Positions 12,011-29,941 of a DNA stretch of 31,197 bases are shown one piece after another. The position numbers were made by a program, and so were the translations under genes. The stretch's first letter is position 1. The number at the start of each line of letters is the position of its first letter. This DNA comes from a virus, in the IMG/VR virus record IMGVR_UViG_3300023172_000122, positions 1 to 31,197 of that record; one strand, written 5' to 3'. The notes under the pieces are model-generated. The model had not been told where the DNA came from. It ran no database searches and saw nothing but the letters and a program-made list of their open reading frames with translations.

Positions 12011-13090
12011 CTAATTCCTATTAATCTTTAAAGTACTAGTAGTACTTTCTCTCAATCGAGCCTCACGAACACGAGGTTTTCTTCTGCTTTTCGGGGAGTA
12101 CTTCTCCCAATCGAATCTGGAGTCCGATGAGGTCTTCCTCTGCTTTCTCGGGGCTGTAGCCCTAGGTGTTCCAAAATAATCGTCCGAGGCTATAGGTCTT
12201 TTTGGTTTTCTATTTGGTTGCATATGAAGACTATCTTCAGCCTCTGTTTTGTCTACATCGATGCCTAAGTTTTTTTTGATAAGATCTTTAAATTGTTCAT
12301 CATGGTTCAGGTCAGAAGAGATTTTTTCAATCGTGGTATCTAAATTGCTAATACTAGCTTTGATAATCTTTTTTATAAACAATTCCAAAGATTCCTTTTC
12401 CAAATCAGAGAAATCAGATGGCTCTTTCTTTTCGAAAACCCTAGCAAGAGCTTGATAATCATCATCCAAGTCAAACAGGCCAATCAAAGGAGCCTCTCCG
12501 CTTTTACCTTTTCCGGTATCTGGCCAGCCTATTAATTGAGCTAGCACTTCTTTGTTCTCACCTACCAATACCTTCAAACCAGAATCAAACAGGAAATCAG
12601 TGATCTTACCAAAACCTCCACCACCAGCTTGATTAAGAACAGCTAACCCAATAAAAGACAGGCCACCGGTGGGGACTGATGCTGCGGCTATAGTCTCCGC
12701 ATCAACCCCCGCTGCAGATAAAATAGTGGCAACAGCCGCTGTGCCTAAACCCGCCACAATTCCACTACTAAGAAAGTCAGCTAACTTTCCAAAGCGCGTC
12801 TCTCTAAGGCTTTCCAATTTTTTCGCTATATCGAGTTTGACTTTATCCCATTGTGAAGGTTTAAGAACGCCTTTGGCGGTTAAATAATACAACAATTCGC
12901 CAACGTTTTTTATATCTCCAATTCCTTCCACCGCCGCGTATTTTTCACCAATCTGTAATTCTTGCAGAGTTTTTGCCGCATCTTCGGTAAGCTCCAAATC
13001 TTCGTCAATCTCCGCTTGTTCTCTAATTACAAATTGTCGCCAATTATCAAATATTTTTTTATCTTTTTCATATGAACTAAAAGTAGACAT
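12011..13090 (-). CDS. Membrane-associated phage protein with NWRQF N-terminal motif
   Basis: I choose the ATG at 13090, preceded by GGGAG at seven bases, over an upstream ATG at 13108. The 359-residue product opens with MSTFSSYEKDKKIFDNWRQF, an aromatic D-N-W-R-x-F element known to me from the N-termini of many marine phage proteins, followed by an acidic stretch. Residues about 109-127 and 134-153 are hydrophobic, Ala/Gly-rich and could span or insert in a membrane. The C-terminus is basic and disordered and ends near VREARLRESTTS, which has V-R-E/A and L-R-E/S sites. A packaged, processed, membrane-active virion protein is inferred. Confidence 0.65.
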   Translation of the reverse strand: MSTFSSYEKDKKIFDNWRQFVIREQAEIDEDLELTEDAAKTLQELQIGEKYAAVEGIGDIKNVGELLYYLTAKGVLKPSQWDKVKLDIAKKLESLRETRFGKLADFLSSGIVAGLGTAAVATILSAAGVDAETIAAASVPTGGLSFIGLAVLNQAGGGGFGKITDFLFDSGLKVLVGENKEVLAQLIGWPDTGKGKSGEAPLIGLFDLDDDYQALARVFEKKEPSDFSDLEKESLELFIKKIIKASISNLDTTIEKISSDLNHDEQFKDLIKKNLGIDVDKTEAEDSLHMQPNRKPKRPIASDDYFGTPRATAPRKQRKTSSDSRFDWEKYSPKSRRKPRVREARLRESTTSTLKINRN

Positions 13091-13121
13091 ATATAAACTC
13101 CCTTTCATTTAACTTAATTAG

Positions 13122-13439: not shown

Positions 13440-14465
13440 TTATAGGTTTGAATAAACTAAAGTTCCTTGATCTACGGGGTGTTCTCCCGGTGTATTACCA
13501 GATGCATCAACAGACATCATCTTGTCGTATGCTTCGTGTTTAAGATCAAAGATCTCTTCAATAACTCCGACTTTTCGAAGTGCTTTGTAAGTTAGATTTT
13601 CAACAGAAAACTCGCCTCCCTTCACAAGGCCAGCAGTTCTCATATTTTTTAACTTGTCCATTAAATTTTCTGCGTAAATAAAAGAAGACTTGTATTGTCC
13701 TTTTGCAAAAAGGTCTTTTAAATGATCCAGCTTTTGCTGAAAGCCATTGATTTTGACCATGATCTGTTGGTCGTCAATGTTCGGCTTTGCAGGAGAAGGT
13801 TTCACAATCCACTCGTTGTTTAAAAGAGAATAAACACCGGTTGAATAATGCTTTTCATTTAAATTTTCAACATAAATTTCAACTTCGTGACCTTTCATCA
13901 TAATATCGTGTTGTTCATTCCAAAGGTTCTTTTTAGAATTAACATAATCACGAATCAGTTTGGGATCAGCCCCAGTTTTCTTGAAGTCAATCACAAGATG
14001 AAGATCAATATCAGAATTATCAGTCCAGTTGTAATTTGCCAAAGATCCTGTGAACTTGATATCGATCAATTCAACATTTTTTGGAAATTTAAGATTATTT
14101 TCAAAAAAGTCTCTTCCAATTTGAATCAATTTGTTTGCAACTTCTGCTTTAAGGACATCCCTTTCACCCCAAAAGGCTGGATTGAGAGAATCTCGAACAT
14201 TGAAAGAAGAATAATCAAACATTGAGATAAACTCTTTCAAAATAACCTTAATCTTTGCTTCTCCAATAGGAGGAGCAGACTTTGACCTTTTCATTGAAGG
14301 CTTTTTGGTATAAGGTTTGGACTTGTACTTGTTTCCACCCTTTCCAATAAGATCTTTCTTCTTTTTTGGATGATTTTTGAACATTTTCTTTTGAAAAGGA
14401 GACTTTGGCAAAGGATCTTTCTTGTTTTCCAAGAAAAACTTCCATTCTTCCATAAAATCAGACAT
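13440..14465 (-). CDS. Pol-beta-type nucleotidyltransferase-like protein
   Basis: The 341-residue protein has the nucleotidyltransferase pattern FTGSLANYNWTDNSDIDLHL: Gly140-Ser141 and Asp152-x-Asp154, with a later VEIYVENLNE as the possible third carboxylate. Such domains transfer a nucleotide to protein, RNA or a small molecule; the substrate is unclear. The N-terminus MSDFMEEWKFFLENKKD is an aromatic acidic element resembling head-targeting peptides of T4-like phages, followed by about 45 Lys/Pro-rich residues. Similar proteins occur in T4-like marine phages. Start at 14465 is preceded by AAAAAGGGAAAA. Confidence 0.78.
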   Translation of the reverse strand: MSDFMEEWKFFLENKKDPLPKSPFQKKMFKNHPKKKKDLIGKGGNKYKSKPYTKKPSMKRSKSAPPIGEAKIKVILKEFISMFDYSSFNVRDSLNPAFWGERDVLKAEVANKLIQIGRDFFENNLKFPKNVELIDIKFTGSLANYNWTDNSDIDLHLVIDFKKTGADPKLIRDYVNSKKNLWNEQHDIMMKGHEVEIYVENLNEKHYSTGVYSLLNNEWIVKPSPAKPNIDDQQIMVKINGFQQKLDHLKDLFAKGQYKSSFIYAENLMDKLKNMRTAGLVKGGEFSVENLTYKALRKVGVIEEIFDLKHEAYDKMMSVDASGNTPGEHPVDQGTLVYSNL

Positions 14466-16372: not shown

Positions 16373-17317
16373 TTATCGCTGCCAATGGTTACTTGAGCGC
16401 TCTCCCATAGAGAAGGAGTAGACTTCCATTATGGCTTCTTCTAGGATTAGATGGCTCAACTCTTCGTTGGAAATCTTGTATTCCCTAAGACCGACTGCGT
16501 TCTTTGCCATTTTTAAAATATCAGAGGGTCTTTTTGTGATTACATCATAAAGACCAAATTGGTTGGCCATCCAGTTGAAAAATTGTAACTTTTGACCGAT
16601 CGAAAGCGTTTTAACTTTTCTTCTGATTTTGGGCATAATTACTTCTAATTCGTCTTGTTCGAAAGTTGTTCTTATCAAACTTTGAAGTTGTGTTGGGACT
16701 TCTTCTGATTTTTTTGGTTCTTCTTCAATTTCTTGTGAAGTTTTTGGGATTGCCATTGACGTACTATTTTCATTGTAGTATTTATCAATTACGCCATTTA
16801 ATTTTACCAAGTTTTTTTCCATTTCCTTCGAAGGAATATCTTTATATACTTTGAAGAACAATTCACCTCTAAGATCTAGAAAATCATTGAAACTCATTTT
16901 GCCTTTTTTGAAATCTTCCTCAAGTCCAAATCTAAGAGGATTAGATGCAGCCACTGGGTTTTTTGCCTTTGTACCTGATCCTCTTTGAGTTAGTTTATCA
17001 AATTCCACCCTGAGACCTTGCAATTTGTCGTCTTTTGGATCACCATATTTTCCAATAAAATCAGACAATGCCTTAAAGTAATCGCCTCCGGAGCTTTGGA
17101 TCATTTTTTTAAAATCTTTTGCTGCTTTTTGAACGTCAATGTTTGACAATCCAAGTTCTTGACCAGCAGCTTTTGCTCCTTTTTTGAGAGCGGAGCCTAC
17201 GCTTTTTGCTCCTTTTTTGAGAGCACCGGCCATCTTTTCAAGTCGGCTTTGCTCTAGAAGCTGCTCTCGCAGTTCTTCTAGAATAAGTTGTTCTAATTGG
17301 TTTTTTGAGATTTTCAT
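16373..17317 (-). CDS. Terminal-tag protein with tag at both ends
   Basis: The 314-residue protein starts MKISKNQLEQLILEELREQL and ends with a second copy of the same element at about 281-297 (YKISNEELSHLILEEAIMEV). After the N-terminal tag comes a duplicated GALKKGAKSVGSALKKGAKA segment (basic amphipathic helices), then a helical body rich in Lys and Glu. Hydrophobic pattern I-L-E-E with L-L-E and L-E-E/A sites fits T4-type head-protease cleavage. No known fold is recognised. It is the last gene of the tag cluster and has AAAAAGGAAATT upstream of the ATG. Confidence 0.72.
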   Translation of the reverse strand: MKISKNQLEQLILEELREQLLEQSRLEKMAGALKKGAKSVGSALKKGAKAAGQELGLSNIDVQKAAKDFKKMIQSSGGDYFKALSDFIGKYGDPKDDKLQGLRVEFDKLTQRGSGTKAKNPVAASNPLRFGLEEDFKKGKMSFNDFLDLRGELFFKVYKDIPSKEMEKNLVKLNGVIDKYYNENSTSMAIPKTSQEIEEEPKKSEEVPTQLQSLIRTTFEQDELEVIMPKIRRKVKTLSIGQKLQFFNWMANQFGLYDVITKRPSDILKMAKNAVGLREYKISNEELSHLILEEAIMEVYSFSMGERSSNHWQR

Positions 17318-17335
17318 GTTAATTTCCTTTTTGTT

Positions 17336-18298
17336 TTATATATTAAATAGTTTTTCAACTTCTTCGGAAAGTATTTTGTTTACTTTTCTTTTGGAAATTC
17401 TGATTTTAGATTCAGACAAGGTTTTTTTATTAATATTAAACATTGGATGTTTTAGAGGTTGAAACCTTGGTGTTTTTTTATTAATATTAAATATTGGATG
17501 TTTTAGAGGTTGAAACCTCGGTTTTCCTTCTCCTTCTGGTTTGATGGTTTTTGCCGCCATTTTCCTAATCTCTTCTTCGTCTTTTTCTCCTTTAACAATT
17601 TCTATTAAGATTTCAATTGCTTGAACCACTTTTGTGTCGTTTTTGTAACTTTTACCAGTTTTTACAAGTTGAGTTAATATTTTATTTTTATTTTCTTCTT
17701 GTTTTAGATTGTTATTTTCTAAATTTTGAGTTATGAAAAATAAAATGTTTCTTTCATTTCCTTTTTCAAGAAGACCAGTGAGTTGTTTTACTAAATCGAT
17801 TAAAAGTTTGCTAATGTTGGAAGAAGCTCCGCCTCCTTGTTTTTTTCCACCTTTGAAGGCTTGAAGCGCGGAATTGTATGACTTTGGAGTTTTTTGTTTA
17901 AACCAATTTGCAATTTTGCTTTTCTTCTCCGAGAGTAGAAAATAAATAAATGCTTCAACATATTCGTTGTCATCTACTGGATTGGATTTATCAATTTTTC
18001 CGTTAAAAGCAAACTCAAAAGGATCTTTCTCCTTTTCATTGTGCTGTCCCATAACTGTTTTAAGAGTGGAAAAAACACCTTTAAAAGCAGCGTTCATTTT
18101 TTCTCTTTTAGGATCAACATTAACGGCTTGGCCTTCAAGAAAATTAATAAAAAAACTTTGAACAATCACATCAGGAGTGAAAACCTTTTGTTGCTCTTGC
18201 AAAACACGACAAGAATCAGAGTAAGAAAGGGAAGAAATCATTTCTTCCATAATAATGTTTGAAAAAACATTTTTTTCAATTTCAAAAGCAGTAAACAT
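17336..18298 (-). CDS. Helical protein with C-terminal tag and internal duplication
   Basis: The 320-residue protein has no N-terminal tag but ends with SKIRISKRKVNKILSEEVEK, a C-terminal version of the tag (297-320). Just before it a 17-residue unit, PRFQPLKHPIFNINKKT, is present twice in tandem. The N-terminus, MFTAFEIEKNVFSNIIMEEM, is hydrophobic-acidic and may act as an alternative targeting element. The rest is helical and charged with a GGKKQGGGASS linker near 153. Function unknown. It overlaps nothing and lies 18 bases upstream of the gene at 16373-17317. Confidence 0.7.
   Translation of the reverse strand: MFTAFEIEKNVFSNIIMEEMISSLSYSDSCRVLQEQQKVFTPDVIVQSFFINFLEGQAVNVDPKREKMNAAFKGVFSTLKTVMGQHNEKEKDPFEFAFNGKIDKSNPVDDNEYVEAFIYFLLSEKKSKIANWFKQKTPKSYNSALQAFKGGKKQGGGASSNISKLLIDLVKQLTGLLEKGNERNILFFITQNLENNNLKQEENKNKILTQLVKTGKSYKNDTKVVQAIEILIEIVKGEKDEEEIRKMAAKTIKPEGEGKPRFQPLKHPIFNINKKTPRFQPLKHPMFNINKKTLSESKIRISKRKVNKILSEEVEKLFNI
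17421..17522 (-). repeat. 51-bp in-frame tandem duplication
   Basis: Two adjacent 51-base units (17421-17471 and 17472-17522) differ at only two positions and each encodes a 17-residue PRFQPLKHP[IM]FNINKKT block inside the tag protein gene. The near identity shows a recent event that kept the frame. Confidence 0.9.
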
Positions 18299-18324
18299 AT
18301 TAAATCTAAACCTTTCTTAATAAA

Positions 18325-18570
18325 TCAAAGACGATTGATTAATTGTGGATAATTAACAGAAAGCTCACGATGGAACTTTTTGAGGAGTTGCTTCACAACA
18401 TCTTCAATGATTTCTTTTGAGATCTTGGAGCGAAGGTTTTTTTCAAAGCTTTTTTCAATCTCTTTTTTGATTTTCTTTGCTTCTTTTTTAGAGATCTTTT
18501 TCACTTCGGATTTTGTGATCTCTTCAAAAAGAATTTGAGTTATTTGATCTTTTGTGATTTTCATTTGCAT
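18325..18570 (-). CDS. Small Lys/Glu-rich helical protein with N-terminal tag
   Basis: The 81-residue protein starts MQMKITKDQITQILFEEITK, the terminal tag, then a highly charged helical stretch (KKISKKEAKKIKKEIEKSFE) and ends QLLKKFHRELSVNYPQLINR. A Lys/Glu-rich helix followed by a short LxKxFxREL end is a layout I associate with small proteins recurring in marine phages. Either ATG (18570 or 18564) could start translation; AAAGGA lies five bases before the first. A leader repeat covers the upstream region. Confidence 0.7.
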   Translation of the reverse strand: MQMKITKDQITQILFEEITKSEVKKISKKEAKKIKKEIEKSFEKNLRSKISKEIIEDVVKQLLKKFHRELSVNYPQLINRL

Positions 18571-18574
18571 TTGT

Positions 18575-18630
18575 CCTTTTTGCTTACAATAAATAGATCA
18601 AAAAGGTTCAAATTTGAGGATTTTTTTTTG
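18575..18630 (-). repeat. Conserved AT-rich leader repeat, copy 1
   Basis: On the minus strand: an A-run, TTTGAACCTTTTT, CTATTTATTGTAAG and AAAAAGG in a fixed order just before the ATG of a tag gene. The same order occurs at 20875-20942 and 22871-22927. It is a likely promoter/leader unit with the -10 in TATTTAT[AT]. Confidence 0.6.
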
Positions 18631-18665
18631 AAGGGTTTTTCACTTTTGAACAAAGTGAGGGCAAT

Positions 18666-18881
18666 CTAGTTGGGGCTCAAACTCATAAGAATTTTCATAA
18701 CCAGAGCATAATCTTCCGGCCTTTCCATTTCCAGTCTTGCCAGTTTTTCTTCCAGAGACTCTTCCCGTGGGGTGGGCTCTTCAACTTCTCTGGCTTGCAG
18801 ATAAGATGGGGGCATCTCCACAACTTCTTCTTGAAGTGCTTCCAAGATCATTCTTTTCAGAATTTTCTTTGTAATTTTCAT
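18666..18881 (-). CDS. Small N-terminal-tag protein
   Basis: The 71-residue protein starts MKITKKILKRMILEALQEEV, a complete tag with I-L-E followed by Ala (predicted cleavage after Glu14). What remains is a short acidic peptide with RLARLEMERPEDYALVMKIL-like helix. No family is recognised. The upstream sequence GGAAAATATATAAATG is nearly the same as for the next two tag genes, so translation starts are conserved as a unit. It lies 13 bases after the gene at 18895-19395. Confidence 0.72.
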   Translation of the reverse strand: MKITKKILKRMILEALQEEVVEMPPSYLQAREVEEPTPREESLEEKLARLEMERPEDYALVMKILMSLSPN

Positions 18882-18894
18882 TTATATATTTTCC

Positions 18895-19395
18895 TTAAAT
18901 GAGACCCTGAGCCAACCTTTCTTCATACTCGTCGTCTTCTCTTCTTATTTGTTCGTGTCGATCCAAGATGTGTTGGAGGACTAGGTTTAAAATTTTCTCT
19001 GCGACGGGATTTCCAGTGTCTCTAACAAATGCCTTAAGTGGGTCATCATACTCGGCTGACAATATATCTTCGAAGTAGTCCTCGCCAACGGGATCGTGAG
19101 CATAAGCAACCATATATACAAGGCCCTGCGGCTGGGTATTCCAATCCACCGCGAAGTGCTCCAGTGCGCCAGCATCAAGAAGCGCTTCAAGATCTTTTTG
19201 AGCTTCTGGCTTCATCATTCTTGCGGTCTTCAAGGCTTCATCCATAAAGTCCTCCCGATCTTCTGGTTTAATCTTTTCACGATTTGCGATTTCGCCAAGC
19301 TTTGCTTTAAGCTTTGCGACGACCCCAGATCCACGCTCCTCTTCTTCCATTGCTTCCAAGATCAGCTTTTTCAGCAGTTTCTTTGTAATTTTCAT
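18895..19395 (-). CDS. N-terminal-tag protein of unknown function
   Basis: The 166-residue acidic protein starts MKITKKLLKKLILEAMEEEE, with L-I-L-E before Ala as the likely processing site. The body has two parts: a helical EDREDFMDEALKTARMMKPE region and an alpha/beta-like DWNTQPQGLVYMVAYAHDPV stretch. The end RLAQGLI is helical. No enzyme motif is recognised. The ribosome site is GGAGAATATATAAATG, the same as for the gene at 19458-20069. Confidence 0.72.
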   Translation of the reverse strand: MKITKKLLKKLILEAMEEEERGSGVVAKLKAKLGEIANREKIKPEDREDFMDEALKTARMMKPEAQKDLEALLDAGALEHFAVDWNTQPQGLVYMVAYAHDPVGEDYFEDILSAEYDDPLKAFVRDTGNPVAEKILNLVLQHILDRHEQIRREDDEYEERLAQGLI

Positions 19396-19457
19396 TTATA
19401 TATTCTCCTTTTATGAAAATTCTTTCGTTATTATAAATAGTGATGATTTGGTGAACT

Positions 19458-20069
19458 TCAAAGCTCTTCTCCGTATCTATCTTCATTCCACTGATAGTTG
19501 GTGTAAGGAATGACTTGAATTTTTGCTGGTCTTTTCCTAGGGTTGGTATACTTTTGAACGTAGTCGCGTATTTTTTCTTCCAATTCAGGCAAGAGACCAC
19601 TCTTTTCAATGTGTTCATAAAGATAATCGCCACCAGCGCGCCTGATCGTGCCAAGAACCAATTGATTATGGGCATCGAAATAATGAGTGGTATAATCGTG
19701 GTCCTCAAATCCATCTTTGAACTGGGGGTCTTCATTCAAGCCATTCTCTGCAACAAAGTCTTCAAAAGCTGCAATAATTGCGTCACCGGTTCCCAAGGGG
19801 AACTTGTCTCTGTCGTCTTGAAGTTTTTTTCGAATTCCCGGAGTATCTCCAAGAAAATTCAGGATATAGTCTTTTTCCATATCTGTTAGATTTTTGAGGG
19901 GGTGGATTTTTGTTCCGCTCATAAAAAGTCGAATTTGCTGAAGGCGATCATCATCAATCCCAACGTTGTGAAAGCCTCGTGGGCTGAGGGGTTCTCTTTC
20001 CATGTATCCACTTTCTCGAAGGATTTCTTCTTTGATGATTTTGGTTAAAATTGATTTAGTGATTTTCAT
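19458..20069 (-). CDS. N-terminal-tag protein of unknown function
   Basis: The 203-residue protein starts MKITKSILTKIIKEEILRES, in which L-R-E before Ser gives a T4-type cleavage site. The mature part contains FEDHDYTTHYFDAHNQLVLG, a His/Asp-rich segment that could bind metal, and a C-terminal FTNYQW-like end (IQVIPYTNYQWNEDRYGEEL). No catalytic family is recognised. The gene follows the pentapeptide-repeat gene by 20 bases and shares its GGAG ribosome site layout with the next gene. Confidence 0.72.
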   Translation of the reverse strand: MKITKSILTKIIKEEILRESGYMEREPLSPRGFHNVGIDDDRLQQIRLFMSGTKIHPLKNLTDMEKDYILNFLGDTPGIRKKLQDDRDKFPLGTGDAIIAAFEDFVAENGLNEDPQFKDGFEDHDYTTHYFDAHNQLVLGTIRRAGGDYLYEHIEKSGLLPELEEKIRDYVQKYTNPRKRPAKIQVIPYTNYQWNEDRYGEEL

Positions 20070-20089
20070 TTATATATTCTCCTTTTATT

Positions 20090-20866
20090 TTAAAGATCGC
20101 TCAAAAGAACCGCATCGTCAGGAGCGCCCATTGGACCTACTTCGTCCGTTTGAACCAACTCGTTTTCGTCCCTGAATCGTGCAGCCTGTGGTCTGACATA
20201 AGTGCTGCCGAACCAAAAATTGTTAATCATGGTTTTAGAATTCCATTTAGCCCCTTTAAAAATGCTTCCTGCGAGATCTCCAGAGGCAAATGGGAGCAAG
20301 CGAACATTTGCTAGATTTGCATTTGTAAAATTAGTCTTATCTAATCTAACATTTGTCATGAATGAGTTTGTCAAATCAGCACCGGTGAGATCAGTTTCAA
20401 ACAAAAAACAGTTAATAAGGTCTGCACCGGTAAGGCTAGCACCGCTCAAGTTTGCACCGTTCAAGGTTGCACTTCTCAGATATGCACCGCTCAAGTTTGC
20501 ACCGCTCAAGTTTGCACCGCTCAAGTTTGCGCGGCTCAAGTTTACACCTGAGAGTTCCCCCCCAGAAAGGTCCACCCCGGATAAGTCAAGTATTTCCTTA
20601 CTTTCGGGGTTATGATTAATAAGGCGCTCTACCTTTTCAAAAGCGTCCTTTCCAAAGTGTTTCATGAAATAGTCTTGTGCCAGACTTTTCATATTAGCAT
20701 CTTCTATTGAGGCCACTAGCCTGTATGCTTTCAAGGCGTTGGAAAGCCTTTTATTTCCCGGAGGGCTTGCTAAGTGTCTGATTTGGGTCAACTCTTCGCG
20801 ACCATATGCTTCTCGAAGGATTTCTTCTTTGATGATTCTTTTCAAGATTAATTTGCTGATTTTCAT
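20090..20866 (-). CDS. Pentapeptide-repeat protein with N-terminal tag
   Basis: I choose the ATG at 20866, because it begins the tag MKISKLILKRIIKEEILREA and has AAGG upstream; an upstream ATG would read through leader DNA. The 258-residue protein has the tag with L-R-E before Ala, a helical domain (residues about 25-95), and then about 20 pentapeptide repeats of A-[DN]-L-x-x form (LSGANLSGANLSGAYL). Such repeats form a square right-handed beta helix that mimics DNA and can inhibit gyrase, but other functions are common. A head-packaged, host-delivered pentapeptide protein is inferred. Confidence 0.85.
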   Translation of the reverse strand: MKISKLILKRIIKEEILREAYGREELTQIRHLASPPGNKRLSNALKAYRLVASIEDANMKSLAQDYFMKHFGKDAFEKVERLINHNPESKEILDLSGVDLSGGELSGVNLSRANLSGANLSGANLSGAYLRSATLNGANLSGASLTGADLINCFLFETDLTGADLTNSFMTNVRLDKTNFTNANLANVRLLPFASGDLAGSIFKGAKWNSKTMINNFWFGSTYVRPQAARFRDENELVQTDEVGPMGAPDDAVLLSDL

Positions 20867-20874
20867 TAGGGGTA

Positions 20875-20942
20875 CCTTTTTGTTTATTATAAATAGGTCA
20901 AAGGATCGGACATTTTTTTCAATTTTGGGATTTTTTTTTGGA
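20875..20942 (-). repeat. Conserved AT-rich leader repeat, copy 2
   Basis: Same arrangement as at 18575: on the minus strand an A-run, then CTTTGACCTATTTATAATAA and AAAAAGG before the ATG at 20866. This copy contains a perfect TATAAT at the position of a -10 box. Confidence 0.6.
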
Positions 20943-21008
20943 TTCAAGATGTTGTCAAGGCTTTTATGCCATGAGGGGTTAGGTAGGTGTCCAATTTGTT
21001 CCAATCAC

Positions 21009-22862
21009 TCACCAGTCATTCATTTCTTTTAAAATCTCTTCTTTGATCATTTTAAATAATTTTGATTTAGTAAACTTTTCTTCAAATCCTACTGGAAATG
21101 TTGTTTCAGAGTTGTATTTGGCTCCTTTAAGGTTAACCCCTTCAAGGTTGACCCCTACAAGATAGGCACCTTTAAGGCTAGCCCCTTCAAGGTTGGCCCC
21201 TCGAAGATCAGCCTGCCAAAGGTTGGCCTTGTTGAGATAGGCCCCTTCAAGGTTGCATTTTTCAAGGTTGCATTTTTCAAGGTTGGCACTGCCAAGGTAG
21301 CCCCCTTTAAGGTTAGCTCCTTTAAGCTTGGCTTCTAGAAGAAAGGCCTTTCGAAGGTTGCATTTTTCAAGGTTACATTTTTCAAAGTTGGCGAGGGGGG
21401 CAGATGCCCTTTCAAGATCAGCCCCGCTAAAATCAGCCTCGCTCAAATTTGAACGGTAAAGCTTCGCCCCTTGAAGCTTCGCCCCTTGAAGCTTCGCCCT
21501 TACAAACTTAGCAATAGAAAGGTCAGCTTCTTCAAAATCAACCTCTCGAAGATCTGCCGCTTCAAAATCGGCATCCGGAAGAGAACAAAAATTAAATTTA
21601 ACCTTTTGAAGTTTAGCTCCTTTAAAATTAGCATATGACAGTTGTGATCTAGAAAAATTAATCCCTTCTAGGTTGACCCCTTCAAAGTTGGGATGATCAA
21701 GCTTTCTTCCGCTAAAATCTATACCTTTAAGTTCAACCCCTCGAAAATCAACATTACGAAACCACGTCCACTTTAATTTTTCTTTCAAATTATCCTTTTT
21801 GATCACTTTAATCATTTTATCATTTATAGCTTTTTCTACTTCTGTGGACAACCCTTTCTCTTTTTTTGCAAGTCGTCGTATCTCTGCAATTATATCGAAG
21901 GTAACTTGAAAGCTTTGGCCTCTTGTAAACATGGAATGAAAAGTATTCAAGTCTTGACCTGCTTTTCTGAGCAATTCTTTTGCTGGGTGCTCTTCAAAGT
22001 TTTGAAATATTTTTTCGATGATTTGATAAACTTCTTTGCTTTCCTCCGCTCCCACAATAGCTTCAAATTGTTCTGGATCGATTCCTTTGTTGTCAGAGTT
22101 GATGTTGGTTTGACCATCAGAATATACCTCTATCTTAGAGCCATCTTCTTTATAACCCAAGCTTAGATAATCATTTGGATGTTCGTCCGGAGGAGTGCCG
22201 GCATTTTTTTTGATCACATAAAACAAAACAATAGATCGAGATATGTAATTGTAAAAAAGGTTGTCTCCTCTCGTTCGAGCAGTACACCAAGTGGTTCCTT
22301 TGCCAAGCTCACAAGAGGAATCTACTCTGGTGGGCATGAAAACTTCCCAGTTTTGAGTTTCACCTATTTTGTCACCTTGAGCTAGCTCTTTGTTTCCTTC
22401 GATATCCCCGACTTTTTTCTCAAGGGCATCTTCAAGACCTTCCATGTTAATTGCAGAAAAAAGATTGATTTGAGGTGGTTTTCCTTTGGTTAGTTTGTTA
22501 ACTTTTTCTTTGAATTCTGGATTGTCTTTGTACTTTTGTTTAACACTATTCATTTTTCCAATGAATCTTTCCACCACAGGAAGAGCCTCATGAGGCGGAT
22601 GGTCTGTTCTTTTTTTGGAAATGTAGTTGGTTTTAAGCCAAACTATCAAAGCTTTTGTTTTAGCTCTAGCTTTTTGGTCTTCTTTTGCTTTTTCATACTT
22701 CTTCCACAGATCTTCAAGAGCCTTCTCATCTTGTTCATTAGGGTACAAAGCTTTAACACTTTCTATATCTTCATAAGAAACTTTAACTTTTGCTTCCATT
22801 AGGAGAAGTTCAAAGATCTCTTCTTTGATGATTTTGGTTAGATCTGATTTGGTGATCTTCAT
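21009..22862 (-). CDS. Large pentapeptide-repeat protein with tag at both ends and a WCTA-type domain
   Basis: Start at 22862 (AAAAAGGAAACCCC upstream). The 617-residue protein has MKITKSDLTKIIKEEIFELL as N-terminal tag, followed by L-M-E before Ala. A helical domain leads to GETQNWEVFMPTRVDS and LGKGTTWCTARTRGDN, a W-x-x-x-x-P ... G-T-x-W-C-T-A motif I recall from tag-bearing proteins of marine phages. About 35 pentapeptides then follow (FEKCNLEKCNLEGAYL), with many Cys in the central positions. It ends with FTKSKLFKMIKEEILKEM, a second tag. The combination suggests virion delivery, with DNA mimicry as one possibility. Confidence 0.85.
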   Translation of the reverse strand: MKITKSDLTKIIKEEIFELLLMEAKVKVSYEDIESVKALYPNEQDEKALEDLWKKYEKAKEDQKARAKTKALIVWLKTNYISKKRTDHPPHEALPVVERFIGKMNSVKQKYKDNPEFKEKVNKLTKGKPPQINLFSAINMEGLEDALEKKVGDIEGNKELAQGDKIGETQNWEVFMPTRVDSSCELGKGTTWCTARTRGDNLFYNYISRSIVLFYVIKKNAGTPPDEHPNDYLSLGYKEDGSKIEVYSDGQTNINSDNKGIDPEQFEAIVGAEESKEVYQIIEKIFQNFEEHPAKELLRKAGQDLNTFHSMFTRGQSFQVTFDIIAEIRRLAKKEKGLSTEVEKAINDKMIKVIKKDNLKEKLKWTWFRNVDFRGVELKGIDFSGRKLDHPNFEGVNLEGINFSRSQLSYANFKGAKLQKVKFNFCSLPDADFEAADLREVDFEEADLSIAKFVRAKLQGAKLQGAKLYRSNLSEADFSGADLERASAPLANFEKCNLEKCNLRKAFLLEAKLKGANLKGGYLGSANLEKCNLEKCNLEGAYLNKANLWQADLRGANLEGASLKGAYLVGVNLEGVNLKGAKYNSETTFPVGFEEKFTKSKLFKMIKEEILKEMNDW

Positions 22863-22927: not shown

Positions 22928-23119
22928 GGATTTTTTCTCTTTGGCTTTCTTTTGGAAAGCTTTGGATTTTTGGGAAGTCATTGGAAAGGGTTCGAATTTG
23001 TGGAATTTTTCTGTGTGTGTCGTTGGGACTAGGCCGCGCCTGTAACCCCCTGATCTCTCAGGGGATTTTACTTTCCGGAAGGGCGAGGAATAGGGGGGGA
23101 GGGGGAGCCCCCCCTCTAA
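22928..23119. other. Composition boundary without genes
   Basis: About 190 bases without a gene in which AT-rich DNA (to about 23010) changes to GC-rich DNA. It holds a 6-bp stem GCTTTC/GAAAGC at 22944-22960, CCCCTGA-TCTC-TCAGGGG at 23056-23073 followed by ATTTT on the plus strand, and a G-run/C-run pair near 23092-23116 beyond the stop codon of the gene at 23120. These could terminate transcription from the right. Confidence 0.5.
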
Positions 23120-23467
23120 CTATTTGTTTTTGTTCTCCTTTTTCAAGATCGCGTTTTGCTCGCGGCGAATCTTCGCGGCTTGTTTGGGATCGCGAAACGG
23201 ATTTCGCTTTGATCCCAAGGACTTAGAATTGCTGGCAGCGTCAAGCGCCCTGCCCATCGCGCTCTTGAGAACGGGGCGTTCGAAACGCCCGACCCGCTGG
23301 GGCTTTTCGTTCTCCTGTATTTTGACGATGCAAAACCCTTTCAGATTCGCGTCGTTACGCTGCATCAGGGCGAACTGCCGGCGAACCTCCGCGAAGCTCG
23401 CAGCCTCGAAGACAGCCTTGCCAATTCTTGAGCCATTCTCGATAGTTACAGTGAAAGCCTTTTTCAT
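23120..23467 (-). CDS. Small basic hypothetical protein
   Basis: The 115-residue product starts MKKAFTVTIENGSRIGKAVF with a strand-rich first half and a basic C-terminus (RRVGRFER, KRNPFRDPKQAAKIRREQNA). The first half may be a small beta-domain, the second may bind nucleic acid; no family is recognised. The leader has AACCCTTTGTTTTC and CAGGAG, the second leader class of this region, and no promoter of the palindrome type. It is the last gene of the GC-rich minus-strand chain. Confidence 0.7.
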   Translation of the reverse strand: MKKAFTVTIENGSRIGKAVFEAASFAEVRRQFALMQRNDANLKGFCIVKIQENEKPQRVGRFERPVLKSAMGRALDAASNSKSLGSKRNPFRDPKQAAKIRREQNAILKKENKNK

Positions 23468-23494
23468 TTTGAAACTCCTGAAAAAAAAGTGAAA

Positions 23495-23508
23495 GAAAAC
23501 AAAGGGTT
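23495..23508 (-). repeat. Leader box copy 1 (AACCCTTTGTTTTC)
   Basis: A 14-base version of AACCCTTTGATTTTC lies 28 bases before the ATG at 23467, followed by a pyrimidine-rich run and CAGGAG. Three longer copies precede other genes. Confidence 0.6.
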
Positions 23509-23519
23509 GGGGCTAGCAA

Positions 23520-23765
23520 TCAGGCGAAGGTCTGGCAAAACCCGCCGACAGCGAACCAAACGATCGAACCGGTCAGAGACACCGAGAACAAGAGGAGGAT
23601 CGAAGGGGTGGCTTCGATCACCTCGTAGCCGTCGACTTCTGGGGAGCCCATGATCGCTCGGACGTATTGATCGCACAGAACGAACATGATCACGCCGTAG
23701 AAGCCCACGGCAGCGAGGGAAACGAAGAAGAAGAGATTTGCCAATGAAGACAGGGAGATAGCCAT
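23520..23765 (-). CDS. Small two- or three-helix membrane protein
   Basis: I choose the ATG at 23765, with CAGGAG upstream. The 81-residue product has hydrophobic segments at about 9-30 (NLFFFVSLAAVGFYGVIMFV) and 57-76 (ILLLFSVSLTGSIVWFAVGG), with an acidic loop between them, so it is an inner-membrane protein with both ends on the same side. A phage role such as superinfection exclusion or lysis control is possible, with no direct evidence. Confidence 0.72.
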   Translation of the reverse strand: MAISLSSLANLFFFVSLAAVGFYGVIMFVLCDQYVRAIMGSPEVDGYEVIEATPSILLLFSVSLTGSIVWFAVGGFCQTFA

Positions 23766-23789
23766 GATTGTTGCTCCTGAAAAGGTGAA

Positions 23790-23804
23790 GAAAATCAAAG
23801 GGTT
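23790..23804 (-). repeat. Leader box copy 2 (AACCCTTTGATTTTC)
   Basis: Exact AACCCTTTGATTTTC, 25 bases before the ATG at 23765 and just after the hairpin at 23814-23829. It opens the second-class leader of the membrane protein gene. Confidence 0.65.
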
Positions 23805-23813
23805 GGGAAACAA

Positions 23814-23829
23814 CCGCCCCGAAGGGCGG
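23814..23829 (-). terminator. UUCG-loop hairpin terminator
   Basis: CCGCCC-TTCG-GGGCGG, a 6-bp GC stem closed by a UUCG tetraloop, lies 19 bases beyond the stop codon of the gene at 23848-24258 and is followed on the minus strand by TTGTTTCCC. The U tract is interrupted, so it may be a weak terminator or a 3'-end stabiliser. Confidence 0.6.
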
Positions 23830-23847
23830 CTGCTCCGGGGTTGGCGG

Positions 23848-24258
23848 TCATTCCACCACGTTGAAGGTAGACCGGACGAAAGCCTCGAAATCCTCGAAGC
23901 TTGCGAAGGTGAGGCGTTCCCCGTCGCTACGAGCCTCTTCGAGGGCTAGAGCAGCCTCAAGGGCTGTGATCTCCTGTTCCACGAACCTTTCGATAGTGGG
24001 GTGGACGTAAGACCCGAAGCCGGCGCGGTATTCGCGCACAGCGTTCAACTGCTCCGAAACCTCGTATTCAGCGCGCATTTCGGCAGAGTAGTCTTCCACC
24101 GCCTCGTTGACGGTGATCAAACGACCCTCGATCAGCCCCTTGTTGAGGGGGCTGAGGTCGGGGAAGGTGCGGAGGATACCCTGAAGCTCGTCTGCTTCGC
24201 GAAGGGATTCAGCGAGACCGGGAATCACGGTATATTTCAGGTAGTTAGCGTTTGCCAT
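23848..24258 (-). CDS. Small acidic helical hypothetical protein
   Basis: The 136-residue product (MANANYLKYTVIPGLAESLR) is acidic and mostly helical, with repeated Ala/Glu-rich stretches (EQEITALEAALALEEARSDG) that suggest a coiled coil, and an aromatic end SFEDFEAFVRSTFNVVE. No family is recognised. It starts at 24258 in the display-hairpin leader described for its promoter and belongs to the first-class promoter genes. Confidence 0.72.
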   Translation of the reverse strand: MANANYLKYTVIPGLAESLREADELQGILRTFPDLSPLNKGLIEGRLITVNEAVEDYSAEMRAEYEVSEQLNAVREYRAGFGSYVHPTIERFVEQEITALEAALALEEARSDGERLTFASFEDFEAFVRSTFNVVE

Positions 24259-24340
24259 TTTGATCTCCTTCGATCAGTGTTGGGGGCTTCGTTGCCCCTT
24301 CTCCCCTATTATACGATCCAACAGTGTCAGATCGTGACAC
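24259..24340 (-). promoter_or_regulatory. Palindrome promoter with 5'-hairpin and SD-hairpin leader (A)
   Basis: On the minus strand: palindrome GTGTCA-CGATC-TGACAC (24324-24340), 10-11 bases, TATAAT (plus 24308-24313), hairpin GGGGC-AACGAA-GCCCC (24283-24298), then TGATC-GAAGGA-GATCA (24261-24276) with the ribosome binding site in the loop, then the ATG. No good -35 is seen 17 bases above TATAAT; the palindrome covers that place, as expected for an activator or repressor site. Confidence 0.75.
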
Positions 24341-24349
24341 ATGTCCGCA

Positions 24350-24781
24350 TTAATTGCGCAAACGTCGCAGGTCGTGCGCTTCGCCCATGCGTTCCATCAT
24401 AGCCCCCGCGGCTTCGGGGCTGGAGGCCAGAGGGATGCGAAAACCCCCTTCACGCAGGAGCTTGCAGCGGTAGAAGGAGATCTCCGCTTTGATCGCCTCC
24501 TCCTCCTCTGTGGAGGTCTCCACGAAGCGCATGCGCTCCTCTTCCTGCTCCGCTAGGCGGAGATGATCCGCCGTTGTGAGCGCAGCAATGGCAGCCTTGC
24601 GGGCTGCAACCCCCTCGCGGAGGGGCGTGAGGATGGACGCGAAGAGAGCGTCCATCTCCTCGGAGAGTTTGCCGGAAGCGTCGACGTGGTCGCGCATTGC
24701 GACGTGTGCGTCGATCTTGCGCTCCATGTCTGCGATTTCAAAGAGGAAAAGGTCTTTGGTTGCGTAGCTGTCGATTCTCAT
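24350..24781 (-). CDS. Small acidic helical hypothetical protein
   Basis: A 143-residue product, MRIDSYATKDLFLFEIADME, almost wholly helical with many Glu and Arg (REGVAARKAAIAALTTADHL, EQEEERMRFVETSTEEEEAI), consistent with a coiled coil. It has no recognisable motif. It shares promoter architecture with its neighbours and ends 10 bases before the next palindrome. Confidence 0.72.
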   Translation of the reverse strand: MRIDSYATKDLFLFEIADMERKIDAHVAMRDHVDASGKLSEEMDALFASILTPLREGVAARKAAIAALTTADHLRLAEQEEERMRFVETSTEEEEAIKAEISFYRCKLLREGGFRIPLASSPEAAGAMMERMGEAHDLRRLRN

Positions 24782-24866
24782 GCTTGATCTCCTTCGATCA
24801 TTGTGTGGGGCGTTGTTGCCCCCTTGCCCTCTATTATACGATCAACGTGTGACAGATCGTGTCACA
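24782..24866 (-). promoter_or_regulatory. Palindrome promoter with 5'-hairpin and SD-hairpin leader (B)
   Basis: Palindrome TGTGACA-CGATC-TGTCACA (24848-24866), TATAAT (plus 24833-24838), hairpin GGGGC-AACAAC-GCCCC (24807-24822) and TGATC-GAAGGA-GATCA (24785-24800). The palindrome has A/T in place of the T/A pair seen in copies A, C, G and H. Confidence 0.75.
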
Positions 24867-24868
24867 GG

Positions 24869-24967
24869 TCATGAGGGAAGCTGCAAAAAGAAGAAAATCA
24901 GGGCGGGGGCGAAGTAGAAGAGGGAAGCAATCAGGACACCAGCGAAAAGCTTAATTGTTTCAGACAT
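24869..24967 (-). CDS. 32-residue membrane micropeptide
   Basis: ATG at 24967-24965 with AGAGGTG nine bases before it opens a 32-codon frame, MSETIKLFAGVLIASLFYFA plus PALIFFFLQLPS, ending at 24869. It is a single hydrophobic helix with a short polar N-terminus. It is preceded by the AACCCTTTGATTTTC leader and followed by the next palindrome promoter, the usual place of a second-class gene, which makes it a real gene. Function unknown; a membrane-acting early peptide is a guess. Confidence 0.65.
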   Translation of the reverse strand: MSETIKLFAGVLIASLFYFAPALIFFFLQLPS

Positions 24968-24995
24968 TTAGCACCTCTTTGGAGGAAAAGGAAAA

Positions 24996-25010
24996 GAAAA
25001 TCAAAGGGTT
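24996..25010 (-). repeat. Leader box copy 3 (AACCCTTTGATTTTC)
   Basis: Exact copy 29 bases before the ATG of the micropeptide gene, just after the hairpin at 25021-25036. Confidence 0.65.
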
Positions 25011-25020
25011 AGAAGGGAAA

Positions 25021-25036
25021 CCGCCCAAAAGGGCGG
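25021..25036 (-). terminator. GC hairpin after the gene at 25046-25369
   Basis: CCGCCC-TTTT-GGGCGG lies 9 bases beyond the stop codon, followed on the minus strand by TTTCCC. The stem sequence is identical to that at 23814-23829, but the loop differs. Confidence 0.6.
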
Positions 25037-25045
25037 TGGTGAGGG

Positions 25046-25369
25046 TCAGAAAGCAACGTCTTCGTCTGTGAGGCCGTCAACGTCGACCTCTTCGGCATAG
25101 TCGAGGGAGATGTCGTCGAAATCGACCTTTTCCCCGTGACGCTCGGCCTCAAAGGACAGGGAGCCGGAAAGCCCGCGCTCCTCGCGCTCTTCGGCGCGCA
25201 TCTTGCGAAGCACGATCTTGTCTAGCTCGCGCATCAGCCAGAGGTAGCTGTCGAAACGCTCGCTGTTCTCGGCATCAGAGAGCTTCGGGAGACCCCTGGA
25301 ATCTCTCCACGCCGAAACGAAGGAAGTGTCTGATTTTGCTTTGTTTTTTCGCCATTCGCGGTACTGCAT
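25046..25369 (-). CDS. Small acidic hypothetical protein
   Basis: Start at 25369, where GGAG lies in the SD-hairpin leader; the frame stays open upstream through the promoter, which cannot be coding. The 107-residue product starts with a basic MQYREWRKNKAKSDTS and ends with a very acidic DFDDISLDYAEEVDVDGLTD. It has no known motif. The opposite charges of the two ends suggest a nucleic acid or protein binding adaptor, but this is not shown. Confidence 0.7.
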   Translation of the reverse strand: MQYREWRKNKAKSDTSFVSAWRDSRGLPKLSDAENSERFDSYLWLMRELDKIVLRKMRAEEREERGLSGSLSFEAERHGEKVDFDDISLDYAEEVDVDGLTDEDVAF

Positions 25370-25454
25370 AGTGATCTCCTTGGATCGTTGTGTGGGGCTT
25401 CGTTGCCCCCTGTGTCCCCTATTATACGATCGATCTGTGTCAGATCGTGACACA
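25370..25454 (-). promoter_or_regulatory. Palindrome promoter with 5'-hairpin and SD-hairpin leader (C)
   Basis: Palindrome TGTGTCA-CGATC-TGACACA (25436-25454), TATAAT (plus 25421-25426), hairpin GGGGC-AACGAA-GCCCC (25394-25409) and CGATC-CAAGGA-GATCA (25372-25387). Here the last base pair of the SD stem is lost (C opposite A). Confidence 0.75.
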
Positions 25455-25461
25455 CGTTGGA

Positions 25462-25665
25462 TCAATCCCTCCAGAAATCGTTGAAAAGCCAGTCCCCGCG
25501 GGCATCAGAGAGAACCTTGTCGATCGTTTGGTCTGGTGTCCAGCCAGCCTCGAAGCAATCGCAGAGGAGCATTTCCGCCTCCCTGCGGGAAAGAAGCTTC
25601 TCGATCGGGTGATCCATGCTTTCGAGGGTCTGGCAGACAGCAGCGACAAAGTATTGAAAATGCAT
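25462..25665 (-). CDS. Small acidic hypothetical protein
   Basis: Start at 25665 (CAGGAGAAAAACCT upstream). The 67-residue product has helices (MDHPIEKLLSRREAEMLLCD) and an aromatic end DWLFNDFWRD. It lies downstream of the second-class leader box and has no palindrome promoter of its own, so it is read from the promoter of the upstream gene. No family is recognised. Confidence 0.65.
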   Translation of the reverse strand: MHFQYFVAAVCQTLESMDHPIEKLLSRREAEMLLCDCFEAGWTPDQTIDKVLSDARGDWLFNDFWRD

Positions 25666-25695
25666 AGGTTTTTCTCCTGAAGGGAAAAAATGAAA

Positions 25696-25710
25696 GGAAA
25701 TCAAAGGGTT
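25696..25710 (-). repeat. Leader box copy 4 (AACCCTTTGATTTCC)
   Basis: Copy with one C change, 31 bases before the ATG at 25665. Confidence 0.6.
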
Positions 25711-25721
25711 AGGGGCTGAGG

Positions 25722-26012
25722 CTACCAAGTCTTGCGGGTGAGAGCCACCCAAGTACCTGATTTGTAAGGGTTTCCATCCATCAGGGGCTCCCAGTTTTTC
25801 TGGGAGAACGTGATCCACGGGCTGAGACGCTCTCTGGTGGTCTTCGACCAGCCGAAACCCCCGTCAGAGACAAGAACGGCGTCAGGGGTGACGCGGACGA
25901 TCTGGTTTCCGTGGAGGAAGACCGATCCGTCAGGGGTGACGCGGGTGTTGGATTTGTTGAATGATTTTCCGGTCTTCCAAGCGGTGAAGGCTTCTTGCGT
26001 GATCTTTCGCAT
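25722..26012 (-). CDS. DUF8033-like phage protein
   Basis: The 96-residue product has the order of a widespread small phage family: MRKITQEAFTAWKTGKSFNK, then SNTRVTP, VFLHGNQIVRV, a G-W-S-K-T-T-R-E-R-L segment and a Trp-rich end. I associate this order with DUF8033 proteins found in many T4-like and other lytic phages; function unknown. Its presence supports the phage origin of the GC-rich half. It is read from the promoter at 26013-26090. Confidence 0.78.
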   Translation of the reverse strand: MRKITQEAFTAWKTGKSFNKSNTRVTPDGSVFLHGNQIVRVTPDAVLVSDGGFGWSKTTRERLSPWITFSQKNWEPLMDGNPYKSGTWVALTRKTW

Positions 26013-26090
26013 GTGATCTCTCCTCAGTTGGTGGGCGTTGTTGCCCTGTGTCCTCTATTATACGATCGATCTGTGACAGATCGCGTCACA
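26013..26090 (-). promoter_or_regulatory. Palindrome promoter with 5'-hairpin leader (D)
   Basis: Palindrome TGTGACG-CGATC-TGTCACA (26072-26090; one mismatch), TATAAT (plus 26057-26062), hairpin GGGC-AACAAC-GCCC (26033-26046) and a GGAGAG ribosome site without a complete GATC stem. A block of GTGATTTC repeats adjoins it on the right. Confidence 0.7.
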
Positions 26091-26133
26091 CATGTGATTT
26101 CCTGTGCGATTTCGCACATGTGCAGGTGATTTC

Positions 26134-26637
26134 TCAGCGCGCCCCGTACAGGTCACGATCCCATTGACGGACGACAGGCTCTGCGAGAGCCTCATGGAGG
26201 GGAACAGGGACAGGTTCGCCCTTGATCCACCCCCAGTTGCGCTTGATCCACGCCTCTGGGTCTGTGAGGGTGTGAGAGATTGCGTAGAAGCCGCTGCCCT
26301 CCTTCACCTCGCGGTAATGAAGCAGAGCGGAAGACCCGACAAACAGGCCGAAGGAGCCTTCGACCTCTACGACCTCCCAGCCACCGAAGTCTGGGAGGAA
26401 CGCCTGAGCCATGAAGCCCTTGTCTGCGCCTTCGTAGACCCACATGTGCCAGTGGTCGTGCTTGGACATGAGGCGGTAGGTGTAGCCGCTGGTGGCGGTG
26501 TGGAAGGTGCTGGTTTCCCAGCACCAGCGGGGAAGGATGTTCCAGTAGCAAGCCTCGGATTGGTGCAAATCGTCGAGCCAGTGGGAGATTGCGAAGCCGT
26601 CAAGGTTGGTGTTGTAGGTGCGGAATGTGACTCTCAT
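26134..26637 (-). CDS. Trp-rich hypothetical protein
   Basis: Start at 26637 by conserved leader position. The 167-residue product is rich in Trp and His (QSEACYWNILPRWCWETSTF; MSKHDHWHMWVYEGADKG) with alternating strands, consistent with a small beta-rich fold. It has no known motif. Copies of GTGATTTC directly follow its stop codon. Confidence 0.7.
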   Translation of the reverse strand: MRVTFRTYNTNLDGFAISHWLDDLHQSEACYWNILPRWCWETSTFHTATSGYTYRLMSKHDHWHMWVYEGADKGFMAQAFLPDFGGWEVVEVEGSFGLFVGSSALLHYREVKEGSGFYAISHTLTDPEAWIKRNWGWIKGEPVPVPLHEALAEPVVRQWDRDLYGAR

Positions 26638-26706
26638 GGCGTGTTCTCCATTTTCTGGGGCTGAATTGCCCTTGCCCCCTATTATACGATCGGGGTGGAT
26701 CTTTCT
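26638..26706 (-). promoter_or_regulatory. Promoter without palindrome, with 5'-hairpin (E)
   Basis: TATAAT (plus 26681-26686) and hairpin GGGC-AATTCA-GCCC (26658-26671) are present, but the palindrome is missing; a lone TTGTCA lies 19 bases above TATAAT and may serve as a -35. Ribosome site GGAGAA. Confidence 0.6.
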
Positions 26707-26717
26707 GACAATTTTTT

Positions 26718-26740
26718 TCAACTATTTTGTAAACAGTTGA
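26718..26740. other. AT-rich inverted repeat between two genes
   Basis: TCAACT and AGTTGA, 6 bp with an 11-base spacer, in an AT-rich island within GC-rich DNA. It is flanked by a T-run on the left and TTTTG on the right. The U-run is on the plus strand, against the direction of the genes, so a terminator role for them is doubtful. Confidence 0.35.
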
Positions 26741-26753
26741 TTTTGAAGGGGAA

Positions 26754-27026
26754 TCAGACCCAACTGGATTCGTGCCAGCCTTCGCAGGCTGCTTCCACGT
26801 CCCATGTGATCGGGGATTCAAGGGGCAGATCGTCGACGTGGATCTCTCTGATCTCGATGGAATAGGGGACAGGAAGACGATCGAGATCCCCGAAGATCTC
26901 GTCCCTGCACCATTCGACGGCATGGGAGCGAGTGACGAACCAGAGAGGCGCACCTTCGGGGGAGCGATCGAAGAGGCGGAAGGTGCGATCGGGGGACTGA
27001 GCGAACCAGACGGTGAAGACTTTCAT
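26754..27026 (-). CDS. Small acidic hypothetical protein
   Basis: A 90-residue product (MKVFTVWFAQSPDRTFRLFD) with a strand-rich first half and an acidic end. It contains HAVEWCRDEIFGDLDRLPVP. No family is recognised. Start fixed by the SD-hairpin leader (F). It is the first gene to the right of the promoter-less AT island. Confidence 0.68.
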   Translation of the reverse strand: MKVFTVWFAQSPDRTFRLFDRSPEGAPLWFVTRSHAVEWCRDEIFGDLDRLPVPYSIEIREIHVDDLPLESPITWDVEAACEGWHESSWV

Positions 27027-27114
27027 GAGCGATCTCCTTTGATCGTTTTGGGTTGGTGGGGCTTTCTTGCCCTCGTGCTACATTATACGATCGACCTGTG
27101 TCAGATCGTGTCAC
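27027..27114 (-). promoter_or_regulatory. Palindrome promoter with 5'-hairpin and SD-hairpin leader (F)
   Basis: Half-matched palindrome GTGACA-CGATC-TGACAC (27098-27114), TATAAT (plus 27082-27087), hairpin GGGC-AAGAAA-GCCC (27059-27072) and CGATC-AAAGGA-GATCG (27030-27045), where the outer stem pair is C-G instead of the T-A of copies A and B. The palindrome overlaps the stop codon of the preceding gene. Confidence 0.72.
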
Positions 27115-27350
27115 AGGTGCTTCCCAGAAGCGAGAAACCAGACCTCTTCGAGCCTCGCGAGGTCTCCCTTGCGCTCCTCGATCACAATCGCGAGACGGTC
27201 GCAGGGGTTCTTGCGGAGATAGACGCGAAGGTCGGAGATCGCCCATTGTAGATCGTTGTGCGCCCACTGGAAAGCCTCCTCGTCTCCTAAGCTCTTGATC
27301 CCATTGCGTAACAGGAAAGCCTCGTGCTGCTCCCAAAGCTCGTTCCTCAT
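27111..27350 (-). CDS. Small acidic helical hypothetical protein
   Basis: Start at 27350 by leader position. The 79-residue product (MRNELWEQHEAFLLRNGIKS) is helical, with EEAFQWAHNDLQWAISDLRV and an end DLARLEEVWFLASGKHL. No family is recognised. It ends on the next promoter's palindrome. Confidence 0.68.
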   Translation of the reverse strand: MRNELWEQHEAFLLRNGIKSLGDEEAFQWAHNDLQWAISDLRVYLRKNPCDRLAIVIEERKGDLARLEEVWFLASGKHL

Positions 27351-27439
27351 GGCGATCTCCTTTGATCGGTGTGTGGTTTCTGGGGCTTTCTTGCCCTCGC
27401 CCTCTATTATACGATCGATCTGTGTCAGATCGTGACACA
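27351..27439 (-). promoter_or_regulatory. Palindrome promoter with 5'-hairpin and SD-hairpin leader (G)
   Basis: Palindrome TGTGTCA-CGATC-TGACACA (27421-27439), TATAAT (plus 27406-27411), hairpin GGGC-AAGAAA-GCCC (27383-27396) and CGATC-AAAGGA-GATCG (27353-27368). It is almost the same as F but has the perfect palindrome. Confidence 0.75.
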
Positions 27440-27493
27440 CGTTTCTAGAAAAGGATTCCAGGGATCTCCAACCCCTTGATCTCAAAATGAAAT

Positions 27494-27550
27494 CGAGTGG
27501 CCTTTAGGAGGGGGGTAAATCAAACCCCCGTGTTTCTCGGGGTTTGCGGG
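27494..27550. repeat. Flanking repeat, copy at the 3' end of the gene
   Basis: About 57 bases that closely match 27744-27800, including GGGGGTTTGATT, ACCCCCC and CTCGGGGTTTGCG-like parts. It lies at the stop codon of the gene at 27520-27741, whose last codons and stop are read through the repeat. The other copy is in that gene's own leader. Confidence 0.65.
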
Positions 27551-28211: not shown

Positions 28212-28221
28212 TCCTTTTAAA

Positions 28222-28663: not shown

Positions 28664-28685
28664 GCTCTCCCTCCTTTCTGCACCT

Positions 28686-28714: not shown

Positions 28715-28724
28715 ATAAAAGATC

Positions 28725-28772: not shown

Positions 28773-28791
28773 CTTGCTAAGGAAAAAACTT

Positions 28792-29894: not shown

Positions 29895-29916
29895 GGCGTT
29901 GTCTCCACCTTCTTGG

Positions 29917-29930: not shown

Positions 29931-29941
29931 TTGTGTCCTCT

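Follow-up and report, generated by a model that had tools for sequence, protein, structure and literature searches.

A short terminal peptide on otherwise unrelated proteins of an uncultured T4-like virus is probably a capsid-targeting sequence. It was recognised in a window of 31,197 nucleotides, which is a whole IMG/VR fragment record and a 31-kb piece of a virus that is also present on a contig of 156,945 nucleotides (G026). In the proposed mechanism, the tag would fold into a helix of about 20 residues with amphipathic character, placed at the N-terminus and sometimes also at the C-terminus, and would keep the proteins within the scaffolding core inside a T4-like prohead; in most cases a gp21-type (S77) protease would remove it after [L/I]-x-E. 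The freed bodies would remain in the head alongside the DNA and, like IPI and Alt of T4, would probably be delivered into the host to act there as early effectors. The packaging of the tagged proteins in the virion, their cleavage, their docking partner and their ejection are steps that we infer.

The tag in the eight-gene cluster

Seven of the eight consecutive minus-strand genes at window positions 16373-22862 open, in translation, with MKI[TS]K..[LI]..[IL][IL].E. The seven N-terminal tags score 21-39 bits with a 15-position profile, while none of the window proteins reached 8 bits when shuffled; when the proteins of every scanned record were shuffled, about 7,000 in total, a single one attained this score. 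At 12 bits or more the position profile recovered seven real window proteins versus no shuffled protein across 13 records. The common N-terminal tag that the earlier note had read from these genes is therefore borne out, both by translation and by the profile.

The gene starting at 22862 (21009..22862, minus strand, 617 amino acids) encodes an N-terminal tag, MKITKSDLTKIIKEEIFELLLMEAK, a phrog_28193-like domain, pentapeptide repeats and a C-terminal tag, KFTKSKLFKMIKEEILKEMNDW (21012..21077, 21.5 bits); the N-terminal tag, mapped as MKITKSDLTKIIKEEIFELLLME to 22794..22862, has a predicted cut before AKVK, assigned from the LxE motif and from the maturation site of the capsid protein (MCP). It is followed on the same strand by a pentapeptide-repeat protein of 258 amino acids (20090..20866; tag MKISKLILKRIIKEEILREAY, mapped as MKISKLILKRIIKEEILRE to 20810..20866, predicted cut before AYGR), by a protein of 203 amino acids with the ortholog L376:4418-5116 (19458..20069; tag MKITKSILTKIIKEEILRESG, mapped as MKITKSILTKIIKEEILRE to 20013..20069, predicted cut before SGYM), and by proteins of 166 amino acids (18895..19395; tag MKITKKLLKKLILEAM, mapped as MKITKKLLKKLILEAMEEEE to 19330-19395) and 71 amino acids (18666..18881; tag MKITKKILKRMILEAL, mapped as MKITKKILKRMILEALQEE to 18816-18881). 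The start of the minus-strand gene 18325..18570 (81 amino acids) was read as MQM, so that its product begins MQ-MKITKDQITQILFEEI, with the tag at 18499-18564 and without a clear cut site. The last tagged gene, 16373..17317 (minus strand, 314 amino acids; tag MKISKNQLEQLILEELREQLLEQ), has its N-terminal copy at 17252-17317 with both LRE/Q and LLE/Q (the slash marks the cut), and a C-terminal tag-like segment at 16415-16480 (8.3 bits) preceded by LRE/Y. The eighth gene, 17336..18298 on the minus strand, carries a tag-like segment at the C-terminus only, SKIRISKRKVNKILSEEVEKLFNI (17339-17410), which is weak at 4.7 bits and stands just after LSE/S. Given the C-terminal copies, and the tagged proteins in which no clear site can be recognised, a plain N-terminal leader is too simple a description of the tag. 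The earlier statement that the mature proteins share nothing else has to be given up, as the genes that start at 20866 and at 22862 both encode pentapeptide repeats.

Within the tag the residues are kept while synonymous codons vary, and therefore selection acts on the peptide; same-codon use is 0.53-0.61 versus 0.39-0.45 expected. These codon data, together with the C-terminal copies, leave hardly any room for a DNA- or RNA-level element, in which the conserved start would be a translation-initiation or regulatory leader instead of a protein tag, although the Shine-Dalgarno context is indeed alike ahead of several window genes. The peptide is amphipathic, with a moment of 0.389 versus 0.255 in shuffled sequences, and a low-confidence structure model of the 19458..20069 product has a helix at residues 5-19, which suggests that the tag may be helical; both structure models obtained are poor, with nothing usable past this hint.

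Other N-termini recall the capsid-targeting sequence (CTS) of T4. A candidate second class of tag, KKIFDNWRQFVIREQAE, lies near the N-terminus of the product of 12011..13108 (minus strand) and is assigned by its resemblance to the T4 CTS (aromatic..F..E); this region also resembles the N-termini of L178:7715-9364, of L172:6398-8542 and of T4 ipII and ipIII. Another candidate, MSDFMEEWKFFLENK, near the N-terminus of the product of 13440..14465 (minus strand), is proposed from its sequence only. Untagged N-termini of this second class, e.g., LLTEWRQFLKE/S and FENWRKVLKE/A, likewise T4 CTS-like, were seen in L132-L210.

Further features of the window were recorded. A 43-nt repeat, CTATTATACGATCGATCTGTGTCAGATCGTGACACACGT, occurs in seven copies at 24277-27888, with a spacing of 0.3-1.0 kb; most copies precede small genes of the minus strand. 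Read on that strand, the repeats have TATAAT beside the palindrome GTGTCACGATCTGACAC, and by sequence they may be likened to an array of regulated promoters. The region 23000-31197 contains many small genes and has a G+C content of 45-56%, versus 34-41% elsewhere in the window; its position is unchanged in the 157-kb contig, and it is therefore not an assembly join of this record alone. At 4327-5106, a trypsin-like peptidase (PF13365) has an N-terminal hydrophobic stretch ending in Cys, similar to a lipoprotein signal.

The head module of the same virus and the cut sites

The window is contained whole, in reversed orientation, in the G026 contig, with 99.7-99.99% identity (blastn); the contig was found by a scan in which it encodes one of the tagged window proteins at 100%. 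At 129834-130433 it codes for an S77 (gp21-type) prohead protease (profile E 2.7e-31), in which the His and Ser columns are conserved, by alignment, with H85 and S140 of T4 gp21, the catalytic residues of that enzyme. Homology and position also identified TerL, the portal (gp20), a gp22-like scaffold (133984-135033) and gp23 homologs, with gp23, portal, TerL and S77 in a T4-like gene order. The protease is thus found on a contig of the same virus, and therefore the objection that its genome might have none, which the earlier note had regarded as fatal to its reading, fails. G026 has at least four more tagged genes outside the window, of which three lie immediately upstream of TerL, and in several genomes tagged genes directly adjoin the protease. 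A conserved core protein of 130-140 amino acids, encoded after the protease (at 130435-130830 in G026), opens with a similar helix, MKKSELKxxIKPxVKEC..LxEEG; it has no PHROG match, and in its poor model (pLDDT 64) helix 5-25 alone is moderately confident.

Two protease-adjacent proteins that are not scaffolds, L172:6398-8542 and L178:7715-9364, end like the gp22-like scaffold, in RWxxLAGIKK, which is possibly a further docking tail. A mimicry of the scaffold C-terminus by the tag was considered and dropped, since the G012 gene concerned is not a scaffold, and the scaffold ends in RWxxLAGI. The head-gene cluster also includes a homolog of ribosomal protein S21, L172:8973-9221 (PF01165, E 2.4e-10); similar genes are found in other head operons, and L212:22183-22410 is annotated as RpsU in Mel-JY01.

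Of 286 tagged proteins, 201 have LxE within tag positions 16-27, versus 106 ± 7 after shuffling; windows further downstream contain it in 39-53 of them, and 25% of untagged proteins have it at the corresponding place. The following P1' residue is enriched for A (2.7-fold) and G (2.2-fold), and LxE with a small residue is found in 42% of tagged versus 12% of untagged proteins. An [L/I]-x-E at the end of the peptide is a statistical property of the whole set; some members, among them the product starting at 18570, lack it or have it in another place. Among the five window sites that had been placed after the tag, those of the products starting at 20069, 20866 and 22862 stand, while the ILE/A of 18881 and 19395 falls inside the tag core (E14). 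In the capsid-protein alignment the known maturation site of the T4 MCP, FLTE/AEIGG, corresponds to LL[KR]E/[ASQ] in the lineage, and by this alignment the virus's own site is LLKE/A; the window tags ending in ILRE/S, ILRE/A and LLME/A match it. The strict MCP-like pattern is rare, yet enriched (15 of 314 tagged proteins). Comparison of the 19458-20069 product with its ortholog revealed 16 identities in the first 19 residues, followed by a divergent linker and then by a conserved body.

The tag could instead be a docking or sorting helix unconnected to the head protease, directing proteins to, e.g., a replication compartment, a membrane or a chaperone, with LxE as the mere end of the helix. 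This would agree with the amphipathic character, with the occurrence of tag clusters far from the protease, with five proteins tagged at both ends and with the lack of LxE at the expected place in about 30% of the tagged set, to which one of the eight window genes belongs; it is nonetheless unlikely, because LxE and a small P1' residue are more strongly coupled than composition would give, several sites in the window match that of MCP maturation, and tagged genes are next to the protease in several genomes. The interpretation put forward in the earlier note is thus partly supported. Its head-protease part has good, if indirect, support: the same virus has an S77 protease, LxE is coupled to the tag and in several cases matches the MCP site, and the tag-bearing viruses are T4-like with S77 and gp23. 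The docking of the tag to scaffold or portal that the note also considered is hypothetical, like the packaging, cleavage and ejection.

Spread of the tag and of the tagged proteins

A degenerate DNA pattern of the tag detected at least 120 viral contig stretches. A stricter one likewise detected at least 120 viral stretches; among 84,980 cellular genomes it matched two contigs, both belonging to metagenome-assembled genomes that contain an S77 protease of their own. The tag is essentially virus-specific and is found in an uncultured T4-like lineage; a related form, MKLTERKLRRIVKEEI, is present in a metagenomic 484-kb phage. RM378, immuto and Mel-JY01, the isolates whose capsid proteins are nearest, had no N-terminal tag in the stretches scanned; the search brought up neither an isolate nor virion proteomics for any tagged virus, and a tblastn search of named phages with the 23-residue consensus, a query too short for BLAST, returned nothing useful. 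T4 late-promoter sites, TATAAATA, are neither enriched nor do they mark tagged genes.

The 314 non-redundant tagged proteins form 258 body clusters; the 25 proteins of G008 form 24, and the highest number of tagged genes on one contig is 27 (G011). A Pfam scan of 100 tagged proteins gave no match for about nine in ten; pentapeptide repeats were found in five, and a TseH-like hydrolase, GNAT and a few other families in one each. A C-terminal copy of at least 8 bits is present in five proteins, all of which are also N-terminally tagged. Bodies as unlike as these, and C-terminal tags mostly in proteins that also have the N-terminal one, make it quite improbable that the genes are a fast-evolving paralogous family from one ancestor, with the N-terminus still recognisable, the rest diverged and the tag devoid of a targeting role. 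The clusters of consecutive genes, together with a same-codon use somewhat above expectation, do indicate duplication of the tag segment, and the pentapeptide repeats common to two window products would also suit such a family.

As for the association of the tag with a gp21-like protease, S77 was detected in 17 of 25 and in 7 of 13 long tagged contigs (24 of 38) versus 4 of 31 contigs of 40 kb or more taken at random (17/25 versus 4/31: Fisher p = 2.9e-5). The p-values are indicative, because the tag served to gather the contigs, the profile was trained on the resulting matches and the sequences are related. The tag pattern occurred in none of the 31 random contigs, the HK97-type S78 protease in none of the 25 tagged ones, and a gp23 profile match in 15 of these 25 records. 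The co-occurrence suggested earlier is hence found, at the level of the lineage, where shared descent alone could produce it. Seven S77-negative tagged contigs that were examined have 4-31 proteins in common with G026 and are without gp23; at least six of the seven seem to be fragments that lack the head module, and G010, also S77-negative, has a differently arranged head module and one tag. Orthologs of flank genes of the window are present in several S77-positive records. Tagged genes near the protease (-25 to +10 kb) number 38 of 79 versus 18.9 expected, an enrichment that is only suggestive because clustered genes are not independent; in G008 (242 kb), tag clusters lie over 95 kb away from the protease.

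On balance, we favour the view that a T4-like uncultured lineage marks unrelated genes, up to tens in each genome and sometimes at both ends, with a head-packaging tag other than the T4 CTS, and that this tag alone suffices to list the proteins that are packaged and ejected, including many unknown early effectors. Packaged or injected phage proteins are normally known only through virion proteomics of cultured phages; if the reading is true, the tag would allow the packaged set of uncultured T4-like viruses to be listed from sequence alone, with hundreds of packaged proteins in the sample taken here. The tag is also a candidate cargo label for loading proteins into phage heads, and bears on the question of whether T4-like lineages evolved different head-targeting peptides.

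Comparison with T4 and other phages

In T4, the CTS sends internal proteins to the scaffolding core, gp21 cuts it off after L/I-x-E and the mature proteins are ejected; Alt is processed at both ends (PMC9026906). The internal proteins of T-even phages are a diverse set, used against host restriction, in which the CTS is the sole common part (PMC3012670). The tag resembles the CTS of IPI, IPII, IPIII and Alt in being a short N-terminal peptide that ends in L/I-x-E on unrelated, variable proteins (PMC9026906, PMC3012670), and a terminal peptide common to unrelated proteins was indeed found here, as in the T4-type internal protein system. T4 ipII and ipIII open with the 10 residues of MKTYQEFIAE/A; unlike this CTS, which is carried by four proteins, the tag is a putative helix of about 20 residues, MKITK..L..II.EEL..LxE, which is found on up to 27 genes per record and is sometimes present as a full copy at each end, a double-ended form for which T4 Alt provides a precedent. 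The tag has no sequence similarity to the T4 CTS (MKTYQEFIAE), to which only the other N-terminal class, ..WRxFLxE, is similar, and therefore no docking mechanism can be carried over.

The system is also like that of phiKZ and SPN3US, where head proteins are cut after x-x-E by a gp21-related protease and many proteins are ejected; unlike here, the propeptides of SPN3US have 20-254 residues, cleavage is after A-x-E, and about 80% of the head proteins escape it (PMC10052503). The open-access papers that a search on capsid targeting returned concern mainly T4, P1, SPN3US and applied work; no description of the tag was found in the open-access literature, and MKITK appears in no relevant paper there. 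We know of no common tag of such a kind in phiKZ or SPN3US. The principle is a known one, and it is in sequence, length, number of tagged genes and double-ended form that the tag differs from the T4 CTS.
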